Origin: a virus
DNA: 22,128 nt
Strand: one strand, 5' to 3'
IMG/VR virus record: IMGVR_UViG_3300045933_000100
Span: 1-22,128 of that record
A program made the translations under genes and the position numbers. The notes under the pieces were generated by a model, which was not told where the DNA came from, ran no database searches, and saw only the letters and a list, made by a program, of their open reading frames with translations. Position 1 is the first letter of the stretch. Each line of letters begins with the position of its first letter. Positions 2,174 through 13,974 of this stretch are shown here, one piece after another.

Positions 2174-3270
2174 CCCGCCAGCGCCAGCCGCCGCTGATTC
2201 CTGAACGTCTCGATGATTGCTGACCATGCTTTAGGCCACTCGAGTACGGTGCGATCCAGGCTATGCTGCATGGCTAGTCGGCGCCGTTGGGCGCGCCACA
2301 AACGCCGGCCCAGCTCGGGTGACTCGATCAGCCTGGTCAGTTGGCGTTCCCATTCGGCCGCGGTCTCGGCGATGAGCCCGTCCTGCTCATCGGTCACGAC
2401 CGGGCCGTAGAGCGTTGGGCTGGCGACCACACACGCGCCGGCCAGGGTGAACTCCCACGCTTTGATCGGGGTCTTGCAGTGGTTGAAGGGCTTATCAGCC
2501 ACGCTGGCGCAACCTATGTCGATGTTTCTCATGCCGCGCGGGTACTCGGCCACCGACATCCACGGCAGCTGGACGAGTTGCTCGGGTGGGACCGCCGTGA
2601 CGAGTACGTCAGCCATGAACCCCTGGACCACGAAGCGGACATGAGAAAAGCGTTTAGCCAGGTTGTGCCAGGCTTCGGCGATCGGCTCGAGGTCCTCGAG
2701 GTAGCGTGCGCCGCCGGCCCAGCCTATGCTGACAGGCGCCACTGTGCGCCGCACCCCGTGCACTGCACGGCGGAACCACGAAACGTCAATACCGTTCGGC
2801 ACGATGTGCACTGGAGTGTCAACGTACTGCCGGATGACGGTGGCGAGCTGGGCGCAACTGGTGGTGACACCGTCGCAGAGTCGGATGGCGGCGATACGGT
2901 CGCGTCGGTCGCGCTCGAGGTCGACGAGGCTTTTGTTGGGTTCGGTCGTGGCACGCTGACGCGCTCCGATCTGCGGGCTGAGCACGTCATCATCCAGGTC
3001 GTAGATGACAGCCAGGCCGGCGTTATGCAACGAGGCGATCCAGCGTCGAGCAGGGATCTGATCCTGCCACGACAGCCGCGGCAAAATGACCGCGTCGAGC
3101 CGCGTGGCGGCCAGGTAGGGCCACTCCGGCGCATCCATCTCGGGATCGTCCTTATCGCGAAACCAGGCGCCATAGCCACGTCGTTGCAGCTCGGAATACG
3201 GCTGCCACACGCGCCAGAGCGTGCAGCCGTTCTCTTCGGCGGTCAGGGCCAGAACGCGCGGCCCCTTCAC
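2170..3270 (-). CDS. Glycosyltransferase, GT4-like (GT-B fold)
   Basis: 366 residues from GTG at 3270. This start overlaps the previous stop as GTGA and has GAAGGG shortly upstream; an ATG at 3312 would overlap by 46 nt. GT-B features: VIYDLDDDVLSP at about 88-99 in the N-terminal half; VPNGID at 157-162 and SIGWAGG at 181-187 at the domain junction; then a donor-side segment at 251-285 containing DKPFNHCKTPIKAWEF, with Glu273 in the place of the conserved retaining-GT4 glutamate, followed by GACVVASP. The family transfers a sugar from a nucleotide-sugar to glycan, lipid or protein. It sits between the Mu F-like gene and Com/protease in the head operon, so it is expressed with capsid genes. 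Capsid decoration or change of host surface glycan are both possible; the acceptor is not shown by sequence. Confidence 0.85.
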   Translation of the reverse strand: MKGPRVLALTAEENGCTLWRVWQPYSELQRRGYGAWFRDKDDPEMDAPEWPYLAATRLDAVILPRLSWQDQIPARRWIASLHNAGLAVIYDLDDDVLSPQIGARQRATTEPNKSLVDLERDRRDRIAAIRLCDGVTTSCAQLATVIRQYVDTPVHIVPNGIDVSWFRRAVHGVRRTVAPVSIGWAGGARYLEDLEPIAEAWHNLAKRFSHVRFVVQGFMADVLVTAVPPEQLVQLPWMSVAEYPRGMRNIDIGCASVADKPFNHCKTPIKAWEFTLAGACVVASPTLYGPVVTDEQDGLIAETAAEWERQLTRLIESPELGRRLWRAQRRRLAMQHSLDRTVLEWPKAWSAIIETFRNQRRLALAG

Positions 3271-10942: not shown

Positions 10943-11224
10943 TCAGAACGGCACCTGCTCGTCAAACAGCGCCTCGAGATCGACCTCGGCGTTGTCGGCG
11001 AAGGACTCGAAGATCGCGCGCAACCGCGCCGTGCGCCGCTCAAGCTGGCCGAGCAGTGGCACGATGTCAGCCACCTCGCGACTGGCCATCAGCGCATGCC
11101 GGCCACCAGCGTTCCACATCACCTCGCACAGCCGCGGCAGATCACTCACGTCGCCGTGCATATCGGCCATGTACTGGGCATAGCGCCGCTCGACCTCGGG
11201 CTGCATGAAGCCGACGTGCTGCAT
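10943..11224 (-). CDS. Small helical protein, unknown function
   Basis: 93 residues from ATG 11224, overlapping the upstream stop by 1 nt (TGATG); a second ATG 6 codons on is possible. Mostly helical: PEVERRYAQYMADMHGDV, LCEVMWNAGGRH, VADIVPLLGQLERRTARLRA, ending in an acidic DNAEVDLEALFDEQVPF. The acidic tail and short length recall small phage DNA-mimic or host-takeover proteins, but this is not enough for a function. Not recognised. Confidence 0.7.
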   Translation of the reverse strand: MQHVGFMQPEVERRYAQYMADMHGDVSDLPRLCEVMWNAGGRHALMASREVADIVPLLGQLERRTARLRAIFESFADNAEVDLEALFDEQVPF

Positions 11225-11415
11225 CAGCGGGCAAACCGTCCGATCCCGACCCTGTAAGGCGAGCCACCACCGCGCAGCTCGTCGCGGCCGTAGCGATCGC
11301 GCATCGCGTTCTGATAAATGCGCAGCGTGTCGAGCTCGGCCTGGACCCGTTCGATGGCATCCATTGCCTCGAGGACCTGTTGCTCGAGCGCGGCGATGCG
11401 CTGCTCGGGCGTCAC
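11224..11415 (-). CDS. Small coiled-coil protein
   Basis: 63 residues from GTG 11415 (GTGA overlap). Residues 1-35 form a heptad-like coiled coil (EQRIAALEQQVLEAMDAIER, then VQAELDTLR). The C-terminal part is basic and Gly-rich (RDRYGRDELRGGG, RVGIGRFAR). It probably oligomerises; function unknown. Confidence 0.7.
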   Translation of the reverse strand: MTPEQRIAALEQQVLEAMDAIERVQAELDTLRIYQNAMRDRYGRDELRGGGSPYRVGIGRFAR

Positions 11416-11651
11416 GGCTGCGCCTGCTCAATCAGCCACACGATGTCGTCGGGCGACTCGAGGACATGCAGCGTGTGCTCCTCGCCCACGAACTGGATCA
11501 GGGCGCCAACGTCGTTGCGGATCATCCACGCCACCTGGGCGGGGTTGATCCAGACCGGTCGCGTCTTGGACGTCGAGATCCCGTAGACCTGGGTCAACTT
11601 GACCAGCCTGGTGGACGGTGCTGCTACGCTGGTATCGGTCTGGATGGGCAT
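11412..11651 (-). CDS. Small beta-rich protein (weakly FlbD-like), unknown function
   Basis: 79 residues. Core VKLTQVYGIS, RPVWINPAQVAWMIRNDVGA, LIQFVGEEHTLHVLESPDDIV. The order 'VKLT - x - INP - V - G - I - F - V-ES-D-IV' resembles the short FlbD-like fold found in flagellar operons and in some phages, where the role is unknown. Resemblance is by pattern only. It sits in the early coupled series and has a short gap of 33 nt to the membrane protein gene upstream. Confidence 0.7.
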   Translation of the reverse strand: MPIQTDTSVAAPSTRLVKLTQVYGISTSKTRPVWINPAQVAWMIRNDVGALIQFVGEEHTLHVLESPDDIVWLIEQAQP

Positions 11652-11684
11652 GTACGTTGCCTCTCTGGACTCTTGGCCCGGCCG

Positions 11685-11828
11685 TTACGAGCGGTCGGGC
11701 TTATTCGTGTGCTCCGAGGCGGTCGGAGCGCCGTTGTTGTCGAGCAGTTCGTCGAGCCGCAGCAGCAGATGCGCACCCCACAAGCCCAGCACCAGCACCG
11801 CGACCAGGATCAACACGACGCCGATCAC
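11685..11828 (-). CDS. 47-residue membrane protein
   Basis: GTG at 11828 overlaps the Cro-like gene stop as GTGA; the stop is TAA at 11685. Residues 2-22 are a single hydrophobic segment (IGVVLILVAVLVLGLWGAHL) followed by a charged, polar tail (RLDELLDNNGAPTASEHTNK). Probably one membrane helix with the tail in the cytoplasm or periplasm. As the second gene of the lytic operon it could be a superinfection-exclusion or holin-like protein; this is inference. It competes with an Arg/Ser-rich frame on the same strand that looks like a shadow. Confidence 0.7.
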   Translation of the reverse strand: MIGVVLILVAVLVLGLWGAHLLLRLDELLDNNGAPTASEHTNKPDRS

Positions 11829-12058
11829 GCGGCCACCGGCTCAGGGCTCGGCTTGTCGGGCTTGAGCATTTCTTCGGGTACACCGAGCAGCTGTGAGAGC
11901 CGCGGGTAGAACCACTCGGGCGGCGGTCGATAGTCCGGGTCGCCATCGGCCAGCAATAGCCGATGCAGGTAGTTGGTGCTGATGCCGAGCTGTTTGGCGA
12001 CCCAGGTCAGGCGCCGACCCTGAGCAAAGACCACGCGTCGTACAGGATGATCAGCCAT
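11825..12058 (-). CDS. Cro-like / early HTH DNA-binding protein
   Basis: 77 residues; ATG preceded by AAGGA at good spacing. An HTH is visible at about 11-34 (GRRLTWVAKQLGISTNYLHRLL), followed by PPPEWFYPRLSQLLGVPEEML, as in short XRE-type proteins. It is the first gene of the minus-strand operon and faces the repressor gene across a shared control region, the classic place for Cro. It probably represses its own or the repressor promoter. Excisionase is a less likely alternative. Confidence 0.8.
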   Translation of the reverse strand: MADHPVRRVVFAQGRRLTWVAKQLGISTNYLHRLLLADGDPDYRPPPEWFYPRLSQLLGVPEEMLKPDKPSPEPVAA

Positions 12059-12080
12059 CTATCCTTCCGAGAGAGGATAG
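12059..12080. promoter_or_regulatory. Operator palindrome overlapping the lytic -10
   Basis: Perfect 7-bp inverted repeat CTATCCT-N8-AGGATAG. The right arm covers most of the -10 (12077-12082) of the leftward promoter, so a bound repressor or Cro would block polymerase. Further ATCCT half-sites at 12105-12109 and 12123-12127 lie by the two -35 boxes. Confidence 0.7.
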
Positions 12081-12105
12081 TACCCCGTCCCCTCTCGACT
12101 GTCAA
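12077..12105 (-). promoter_or_regulatory. Lytic (PR-like) promoter
   Basis: On the minus strand: TTGACA (12105-12100), 17-nt spacer, TACTAT (12082-12077). Perfect -35, 4 of 6 at the -10. Expected start near 12070, about 12 nt before the Cro-like ATG. Confidence 0.75.
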
Positions 12106-12119
12106 TCCTATAGTTGACA
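12100..12119. promoter_or_regulatory. Back-to-back -35 boxes (20-bp inverted repeat)
   Basis: TGTCAA-TCCTATAG-TTGACA. Each arm is a perfect -35 hexamer facing away, 8 bp apart. The rightward one would serve the repressor gene with a poor -10 (TTACCG at spacing 17, or TACCGT at spacing 18), giving a transcript that starts almost at the GTG codon at 12153. Confidence 0.55.
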
Positions 12120-12152
12120 AGTATCCTCGCGGGGAATTACCGTGCTCCGCGC

Positions 12153-12686
12153 GTGGACGCCCTGAGAACGATGATTGAGGACTGGATGCGTGAGCGCGGC
12201 GCTTCTCAGGCTGATCTTGCGCGCGCGAGTGGAGTGCCGCAGAACGTCATCAGCAAGTGGCTCAACGGCCAGGTCGATGAAGCCAGTCCGCGCAGCCTGA
12301 AACGCATCGCGCCCATACTGGGCCTGTCCTACGAGGATCTCTTGCGGCGTATGGGCGAGCTGCCATCCAGGCCGGACGCTGTCGACGCGGACCCACTCGA
12401 GCAATACATCCGCCAGCGCATCGCAGAGATGCGCGAGGCCGTGCGCGATACGCCGCGCGCCACATGGGCCACGATCGTCAAGTACACGTTCGACCACGCC
12501 ATTGCTGGCGCGCGAGATATGGCCCAGCTCCTGGCCGACCAGCAATCACGCGAACGCCCAGTTAGAAAGCGCACTGTAGCCCCAGCTAAAGCCTCATCAG
12601 CGCATCCTAGCTACGGCGGCACATCAGGCGGTGACCAGCTAAAGACTCGTCAACGGGTCGCCACATTGGTGCTAGCAGGCGCATAG
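12153..12686 (+). CDS. CI-like repressor (XRE-type HTH)
   Basis: 177 residues from GTG 12153 (MDALRTMIEDWMRERGASQ). The frame stays open up to a TTG at 12114, but that TTG is part of the -35 box, so I favour the GTG and a leaderless or nearly leaderless mRNA; the ATG at 12171 is another option. HTH at about 18-40: ASQADLARASGVPQNVISKW, followed by LNGQV and RSLKRIAPILGLSYEDLLR, a typical XRE domain. The C-terminal 110 residues are helical and then low-complexity, with no LexA-type Ser/Lys protease motif, so induction by RecA-driven self-cleavage is not supported. Faces the Cro-like gene; integrase follows. Confidence 0.82.
   Translation: MDALRTMIEDWMRERGASQADLARASGVPQNVISKWLNGQVDEASPRSLKRIAPILGLSYEDLLRRMGELPSRPDAVDADPLEQYIRQRIAEMREAVRDTPRATWATIVKYTFDHAIAGARDMAQLLADQQSRERPVRKRTVAPAKASSAHPSYGGTSGGDQLKTRQRVATLVLAGA
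12582..12652 (+). repeat. Pair of 18-bp direct repeats upstream of integrase
   Basis: ccagctaaagMctcRtca at 12582-12599 and 12635-12652, 16 of 18 identical. The 53-bp offset is not a multiple of 3, so the copies are read in different frames of the repressor tail and the conservation is at DNA level. Possible protein-binding (integrase arm) sites. Confidence 0.6.
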
Positions 12687-12759
12687 CCGTGCGCCGTATC
12701 GCCGCCGTAACGCTCTCAACCATCCTGCAACCCGGACGCCTTGCGTTGCCATGCTGAAT

Positions 12760-12773
12760 AGAACGACTGTTCT
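12760..12773. promoter_or_regulatory. GAAC-N4-GTTC palindrome (SOS-box-like) before integrase
   Basis: A-GAAC-GACT-GTTC-T, a 14-bp palindrome 26 nt before the chosen integrase start. The half-sites and 4-nt gap match the LexA (DinR) box core of Gram-positive bacteria (CGAAC-N4-GTTCG), though the outer C and G are A and T here. Confidence 0.5.
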
Positions 12774-12798
12774 GCATGGCAAGGGAGGAAGCCGTGTT

Positions 12799-13842
12799 GT
12801 GGACCTGAGAGATGCGGTGTCGTATCACCAGCTCGTCCTGGCGTCTGAGGGTCGATCGGTCAAGACGCAGCGGCAATACCTGATCTTCGAGCGCGTCTTT
12901 CTGCACTACCTCGAGGCGCGGCGGATCGCGCCCGAGCTCGACGCCTTGAACGTGACCAACGTGCGCGAGGCGCTGGCCTGGTATCGCGCGCAGGACGTCT
13001 CACAGCGCACGCGTAACGGCGAGGTCGCCGCCCAGGCGTTCATTGACATCATGCATCTGCTCGCTCGCTTCCTCGAGCGCGAGGGCATCCTTGAGGACGA
13101 CCCGCTGCGCGGCCTGCGGCGGGTCAAGGTGGCCAAGCGGCTGCGCCAGCCGTACTCGCAAGCCGAGGTCATCGCGTTGTGGGGCGCGTGCCGCCAGTCG
13201 CAGCAGCCAACCCGTGACGAAGCGCTGCTGTTGCTGCTACTCGACACGGGCATGCGTATCGGTGAGGCGTGCGCCCTCACGCTCGACAAGCTCAAGCTCG
13301 ATCAGCGCATGGTGCTCGTCGGTGAGCACGGCAAGGGACGCCGTGAACGCGTCGTGCCCATCGGCCAGTCCGACAAACGTGACGGCGGCCGTACCCTGCG
13401 CTCCCTGCGCCGTTATCTGGCCGAGCGGCACGACGGACCTCGAGCCGCGGGCCGGCTGTTCCTGGGTCGTGATGGGTACCCGCTCGAGGCCGGCGGCGGC
13501 AGCGACATCGTCGAGCGCCTGGGCAAAACGGCGCACGTGGCCGACCCTGGTCCGCACCGGCTCAGACACACGTATGCGACGTGGTATCTCGTGACGTATC
13601 CCGGTGACGAGATCGGCCTGCGCAGGATCATTGGCCACGTCAGTCGCGAGGTGCTCAGCGACTACGTGCACTTTGCCGAGAGCATCATCGCCGAGCGTGC
13701 GGGGAATGCCTCACTCGCGGAGCGCTGGCTGAATCCGCACAGTGAGCCGGCGAAGGTGCCGTACCAGGGTGGCGACCTGTCGAACGTTCGCAGTTTTCAT
13801 TGTCGCGACTGCCAACAGCACGCGATGCGTCACACCCATTGA
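12799..13842 (+). CDS. int: Tyrosine recombinase / phage integrase
   Basis: 347 residues from GTG 12799, which has GGGAGG 10 nt upstream; ATG 12751 lies in the SOS-like palindrome region and lacks a ribosome site. N-terminal SAM-like core-binding domain at about 5-110 (SYHQLVLASEGRSVKTQRQY). Catalytic residues: Arg153 in TGMRIGEACAL, Lys179 in GKGRRERVVPI, His253 and Arg256 in HRLRHTYA, His280 in IIGHVSRE, Tyr289 in SDYVHF. All six are present, so the enzyme should be active. Odd: after the catalytic tyrosine a tail of about 55 residues ends in HCRDCQQHAMRHTH, a possible zinc knuckle. It catalyses insertion and excision between attP and attB. Confidence 0.95.
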   Translation: MDLRDAVSYHQLVLASEGRSVKTQRQYLIFERVFLHYLEARRIAPELDALNVTNVREALAWYRAQDVSQRTRNGEVAAQAFIDIMHLLARFLEREGILEDDPLRGLRRVKVAKRLRQPYSQAEVIALWGACRQSQQPTRDEALLLLLLDTGMRIGEACALTLDKLKLDQRMVLVGEHGKGRRERVVPIGQSDKRDGGRTLRSLRRYLAERHDGPRAAGRLFLGRDGYPLEAGGGSDIVERLGKTAHVADPGPHRLRHTYATWYLVTYPGDEIGLRRIIGHVSREVLSDYVHFAESIIAERAGNASLAERWLNPHSEPAKVPYQGGDLSNVRSFHCRDCQQHAMRHTH

Positions 13843-13915: not shown

Positions 13916-13933
13916 GCCGGCATTAGGCTATTG

Positions 13934-13953
13934 ACCCCATTACGCAATGGGGT
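13934..13953 (+). terminator. 8-bp perfect hairpin after integrase
   Basis: ACCCCATT-ACGC-AATGGGGT, followed by GTTAGTGTT. Could end integrase transcription, although there is no clean T tract. It also falls in the spacer of a possible promoter (TTGACC at 13931-13936, weak -10 near 13954-13960), so an operator for the ParB-like gene is equally possible. Confidence 0.5.
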
Positions 13954-13974
13954 GTTAGTGTTACTGACGGAAGC

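Follow-up and report, generated by a model that had tools for sequence, protein, structure and literature searches.

In the O_R region of phage lambda a strong lytic promoter and a weak repressor promoter diverge, as in the locus described here, and interference between polymerases at PR and PRM is known. Lambda CI proper carries a self-cleaving S24 domain whose action is triggered by RecA, although other switches of this sort can be without one. The cI message of lambda is leaderless and, according to the available part of PMC3017554, was the first of its sort to be described. In mycobacteriophage BPs, as far as the available text of PMC4557955 describes it, the gene order is int-rep with a divergent cro, attP is located inside the repressor gene, immunity depends on integration, and one operator is situated inside a promoter, between its -10 and -35, with another at a second promoter. 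Moreover, overlapping promoters can give a switch if their activities differ and if the regulator affects both unequally, as stated in the available portion of PMC4207663. The pLS20 conjugation switch of Bacillus treated in that portion has divergent promoters of unequal strength, like the present locus, and one regulator; its core promoters coincide or overlap, whereas those described here stand back to back.

The locus and its relatives

The DNA analysed, referred to below as the window, is one viral record of 22,128 bp. As judged from its genes and signals, the interval under study most likely controls the cro and repressor genes of a temperate phage, similar in its working to lambda O_R. 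It is a further instance of a lambda-like divergent immunity switch, and the kind itself is familiar and ordinary. The genes concerned are the following.

11825-12058, minus strand: Cro-like HTH protein of 77 aa, first gene on the leftward (lytic) strand; HTH_31 match (E=7.6e-5) under Pfam's curated cut-off
12153-12686, plus strand: CI-like repressor of 177 aa with a GTG start; HTH at the N-terminus (HTH_3, E=1.4e-9) and matches to transcriptional repressor PHROGs
12799-13842, plus strand: tyrosine integrase (Phage_integrase, E=1.7e-26) with a strong SD

The two divergent HTH regulator genes flank a short control region, and the integrase gene follows directly after the repressor gene. The leftward direction was taken as the lytic one because the terminase, portal, prohead protease and replication-initiation genes are carried on the minus strand. 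Unlike in lambda, the integrase stands directly after the repressor, and no match to the peptidase S24 domain was found in the repressor by profile search (E up to 0.1). A tblastn search of the phage collection at E 1e-5 gave nothing for the repressor, the PDB contained no sequence relative of it at E 0.01, and megablast with the whole window gave no match. Terminase matches were present in 374 phage records and portal matches in 759, all of them below 60% identity and from mixed hosts.

Four further loci were obtained when IMG/VR was scanned with repressor and integrase, namely L002/L007 (two ends of one contig with a 19-base overlap, hereafter L002), L004, L009 and L010; in the last two the contig ends within the integrase. 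One more pattern match, L006, fell within a 783-aa ORF on an unrelated-looking contig and was dropped. The cro-like gene has the same position in all four relatives, and the order cro(-), repressor(+), integrase(+) was found in 5/5 loci. The divergent lysis-lysogeny control region proposed in the initial annotation is thus borne out by HTH genes on both sides, by the integrase after the repressor and by this common order. The gene order and the co-directional rep and int of all five loci also resemble BPs, as the available account of that phage (PMC4557955) presents it.

Divergent promoters

The following promoter and operator features were recognised.

12059-12080, no strand assigned: dyad O1, CTATCCT-N8-AGGATAG, with arms at 12059-12065 and 12074-12080
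12077-12105, minus strand: leftward promoter, TTGACA (12105-12100), 17-bp spacer, TACTAT (12082-12077)
12100-12119, no strand assigned: TGTCAA-N8-TTGACA, outward -35 pair and also a 20-bp dyad with the 6-8-6 build of O1
12109-12114, plus strand: TATAGT, alternative rightward -10 without a recognisable -35, 5/6 positions; its leader would be about 30 nt
12114-12143, plus strand: rightward (repressor) promoter, TTGACA, 18-bp spacer, TACCGT; TACCG is equally far from the start in L002
12122-12136, plus strand: O2, operator-like site TATCCTCGCGGGGAA between the rightward -35 and -10, a partial second copy of O1

The two outward-facing consensus -35 hexamers claimed in the initial annotation are present, TGTCAA at 12100-12105 and TTGACA at 12114-12119 with 8 bp between them, and the pattern TGTCAA-N0-30-TTGACA was not obtained in any of 20000 dinucleotide shuffles of the 94-bp spacer. 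Similarly, an equally good outward promoter pair (each promoter >=9, together >=19 of 24, -35s 0-20 bp apart) arose in 0/5000 such shuffles. The outward promoter pair is far above chance for DNA of such composition. The leftward promoter, described there as strong, agrees with the consensus at 10/12 positions and is the one match that scanning 11000-13400 for promoters gave (expected 0.2). As had also been noted, the rightward promoter has a poor -10, the best hexamer being TACCGT, which together with the -35 reaches 9/12. By consensus match, then, the leftward lytic promoter is predicted to be strong and the repressor promoter weak; these scores measure the match to a sigma-70-type consensus, which may not be that of the host.

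When lambda PR/PRM (record J02459) was scanned by the same scripts, the -35s were 12 bp apart vs 8 bp in the window, and the predicted starts 83 vs 80 bp. A lambda-like switch can thus be expected to show back-to-back -35s and a near-leaderless repressor, and neither is a novelty. It had further been supposed that polymerases would exclude each other and make the region a toggle even before protein binding. Exclusion itself is plausible, and the 8 bp here are tighter than the 12 bp of lambda. However, a toggle in which a bound polymerase keeps the other away, so that the region is already switch-like without a regulator, is highly improbable: by reasoning, exclusion alone is a competition without memory and with a single steady state, the overall spacing in lambda is nearly equal, the core promoters here abut without overlap, and their unequal predicted strengths would let one side mostly win. 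In addition, the perfect -35 hexamer pair is absent from the spacers of all four relatives and is a detail specific to the present phage.

The exact geometry was also considered as a means of recognising immunity switches. A scan of IMG/VR with ANNNTA-N17-TGTCAA-N8-TTGACA-N17-TANNNT matched at least 120 stretches; among the 120 matches listed, 52 were flanked by divergent ORFs and had no ORF >=100 aa running across them, 20 did have such an ORF across them, and the median GC was 0.39, with 10 above 0.55. The 104 proteins flanking the 52 listed loci included 12 with HTH_3 and 14 with Terminase_2 (E up to 0.01). With this mixture of flanking proteins among the listed matches the geometry does not single out immunity switches, and its use as a marker was rejected.

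Candidate operators

The palindrome that the initial annotation had placed as an operator over the leftward -10 does lie there, its right arm overlapping the -10 and its left arm GGAAGGA, a weak SD-like sequence belonging to the cro-like gene, but alone it is unremarkable, with a 7-bp-arm dyad as long in 7.2% of 1500 shuffles (P=0.07). Its significance is raised because the half-site recurs at O2 and because TATCCT/AGGATA occurs three times (any 6-mer was so frequent in 2.3% of 1500 shuffles). O2 and the reverse strand of O1 (TATCCTCTCTCGGAA, 12079-12065) are identical at 12/15 positions, which was reached in 71/2000 shuffles; the lambda operator region, used as a positive control with the same pair statistic, gave 12/15 and 56/2000. 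Elsewhere in the window there was one O1-like dyad, with 3 mismatches. As O2 is located in the rightward spacer, there is one candidate operator per promoter, and O1 and O2 might be read by both regulators. Lambda has three annotated operators whereas two are recognisable here, and the sequences are unrelated. Compared with BPs, as described in the available text of PMC4557955, the positions are reversed, since in the window the spacer operator belongs to the repressor side and O1 to the lytic one.

A third operator could be seen in TGTCAA-N8-TTGACA, which would then serve chiefly as a dyad for CI or Cro, with only the leftward -35 a true promoter element. Its arm and spacer lengths are those of TATCCT-N8-AGGATA in O1 (two separate perfect dyads with one common spacer length arose in 16/5000 shuffles, a test picked post hoc), and its centre is 22 bp from that of O2, taken as 20 bp, comparable to the 23 and 24 bp that separate the annotated lambda operators. 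We consider this reading unlikely, given that its half-sites have only 3/6 bases in common with TATCCT, that each hexamer is a perfect -35 with a -10 at a workable distance, and that this dyad too is missing from the spacers of the four relatives. The preferred reading is still that of two promoters with O1 and O2 as their candidate operators.

Start codon and leader of the repressor

In the alignment of the homologues, 12 residues precede the aligned HTH glycine in L002 (start taken as ATG 5977), 18 in L004, 18 in L009 and 14 in L010. In the window the same glycine is preceded by 15 residues from GTG 12153, 9 from ATG 12171 and 28 from TTG 12114. GTG 12153 is the best start because these counts fit the starts of the four homologues. 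TTG 12114, suspected in the initial annotation to be wrong, is indeed so on the same grounds (28 residues vs 12-18), and it coincides with the opening triplet of the rightward TTGACA.

The claim of a leaderless or near-leaderless repressor message was likewise upheld in its second form: from GTG 12153, which agrees with the starts of the relatives, the message is probably near-leaderless. A TANNNT hexamer was found 9 nt ahead of the repressor start in the window, 7 nt in L004, 7 nt in L009 and 15 nt in L010, and L002 has TACCGG, without the final T, 9 nt ahead; the distance from the end of the repressor -10 to the start codon is 6 nt in lambda vs 9 nt in the window. The anti-SD pairing of the repressor was -5.5 kcal/mol in the window and -6.8, -7.9, -3.3 and -7.1 in the relatives, and none of the five repressor SDs went beyond the 5% quantile of random 22-mers (-8.0; 25% quantile -5.0). 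The integrase SD was strong in 5/5 loci (-10.2 to -14.7). The region upstream of lambda cI gave -7.4 in the same test, so that an SD value of such size is compatible with a leaderless message and is not proof of one.

Transcription could also start rightward from TATAGT at 12109-12114, giving an ordinary leader and leaving the TTGACA at 12114 unused in that direction. This hexamer matches the -10 consensus better than TACCGT does; however, it has neither a -35 nor an extended -10, no clear SD precedes GTG 12153, and -10-like hexamers stand 7-9 nt ahead of the start in L002 (TACCGG), L004 (TACCCT) and L009 (TAGACT). Such a start is therefore distinctly unlikely, and the near-leaderless message is retained below.

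Conservation of the control region

Among the relatives the layout is kept, the sequence letters are not. Beside the cro start, where the window has O1, L002 carries another perfect dyad, GTGTGTG-N10-CACACAC, which is simple sequence (P=0.11). The longest dyads of L002, L004, L009 and L010 were not significant (P=0.11, 0.22, 0.97 and 0.24), nor were the four relatives outstanding in the repeated-15-mer test (P=0.37, 0.87, 0.81 and 0.08, 200 shuffles each); the L002 spacer in these tests was 90 bp long (start 5980), and is 87 bp with ATG 5977. In the dyad scan with arms >=6, no dyad was found in L009, nor in lambda. L004 and L009, whose HTH is 75% identical, shared no significant common operator (13/18, reached in 12/60 shuffles). 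Between the window and L002 the identity was 27% in the HTH, 32% in Cro and 60% in the middle of the repressor; a diverged HTH and Cro together with differing dyad arms (CTATCCT vs GTGTGTG) and a better-kept repressor middle are what would be expected for immunity types.

Working model

Transcription from the strong leftward sigma-70-type promoter would lead to the cro-like gene and the strand with the replication, terminase and portal genes, and that from the weaker rightward promoter to the CI-like repressor and then the integrase. On phage entry the left promoter would dominate, and the right one, its message being near-leaderless, would give little repressor. Repressor bound to O1, over the left -10 and the SD, could turn lytic transcription off, and occupation of O2, whether by the repressor itself or by an antagonistic Cro-like protein, could limit repressor synthesis. 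Polymerases at the two promoters probably impede one another, so that repression of one would favour the other, and the memory would be supplied by the proteins, not by polymerase exclusion.

The repressor 3' end and the integrase upstream region

The features downstream may be more interesting than the promoters. Two of them are listed here.

12558-12652, plus strand: repeats with a GYTAR core (read by eye) in the 3' end of the repressor, at -237, -213 and -160 relative to the integrase start
12761-12772, no strand assigned: GAAC-N4-GTTC dyad (GAACGACTGTTC), SOS-box-like, 38 nt ahead of the integrase start

Between the window and L002, 25/29 four-fold sites were kept in the last 59 codons of the repressor and 105/176 in the integrase (Fisher P=0.006), and 5/10 and 5/10 in the earlier parts of the repressor. 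Direct repeats CCAGCTAAAGNCTCNTCA were observed at 12582 and 12635 in the repressor 3' end, together with a related GTTAG site. In the 330 bp ahead of the integrase, TTAG/CTAA occurs 3 times in the window, 2 in L002, 6 in L004, 7 in L009 and 1 in L010, against record means of 0.31, 0.06, 0.18, 0.13 and 0.10, respectively. Other (overlapping) intervals reaching the count numbered 12/705 in the window, 0/356 in L002, 0/316 in L004, 0/116 in L009 and 11/112 in L010, so that, taken singly, the counts in the window and in L010 are nothing exceptional. The repeat spacings of 24 and 53 bases recur in the window, L004 and L009, and that of 53 also in L002. The repeats are candidate arm sites of the integrase within the repressor gene. 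Through these candidate sites the integration signals seemingly extend into the repressor 3' end, as would be BPs-like according to the available text of PMC4557955. Because no position for the attP core could be fixed in the window, membership in the BPs type is not claimed; no attL/attR or attB was seen, the two scans of genome contigs for relatives being empty. A GTGAC block (GTAAC in the window, 12707-12711) between the repressor stop and the integrase is aligned in the five loci and is a possible attP core. After the integrase, at 13923-13958, a CCCCATT/AATGGGG inverted repeat stands between two TTAG copies and could be a terminator or further att sites. The repressor C-termini of the five loci are LAGA, LAGA, ALSH, VAAA and YRAA, alanine-rich in 4/5, and no clear ssrA-like degradation tag was found among them.

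GAAC-N4-GTTC stands 38-50 nt ahead of int in 5/5 loci, four copies being exact and that of L010 having one mismatch, and the copy at 12761-12772 is the sole exact one in the 22-kb window. According to the available part of PMC3323433, LexA in Gram-positive bacteria has this motif. With its flanking bases the site reads AGAACGACTGTTCT (12760-12773), a Gram-positive-type SOS-box-like dyad ahead of the integrase. A perfect GAACGATCGTTC was also observed in L010 at 3060-3071, inside the cro-like gene. SOS control acting through the integrase is a reasonable guess from these sequences, made because the repressor has no match to a self-cleaving domain.

Based on these features, integration-dependent immunity might extend beyond the cultured actinobacteriophages, with integrase sites in the repressor 3' end, integration altering the C-terminus of the repressor, and an integrase promoter under SOS (LexA) control; we regard this as doubtful, a conjecture with the balance of probability well against it. 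If it were true, the SOS-controlled integrase promoter would act as damage sensor in place of the missing self-cleaving repressor. What the locus adds is a lambda-like geometry, in spacing, near-leaderless repressor and unequal promoters, in an uncultured phage family with diverged operators and HTH domains. The constraint on the downstream DNA is a lead, in that phages without a recognisable self-cleaving repressor might tie integration and DNA damage to the switch.
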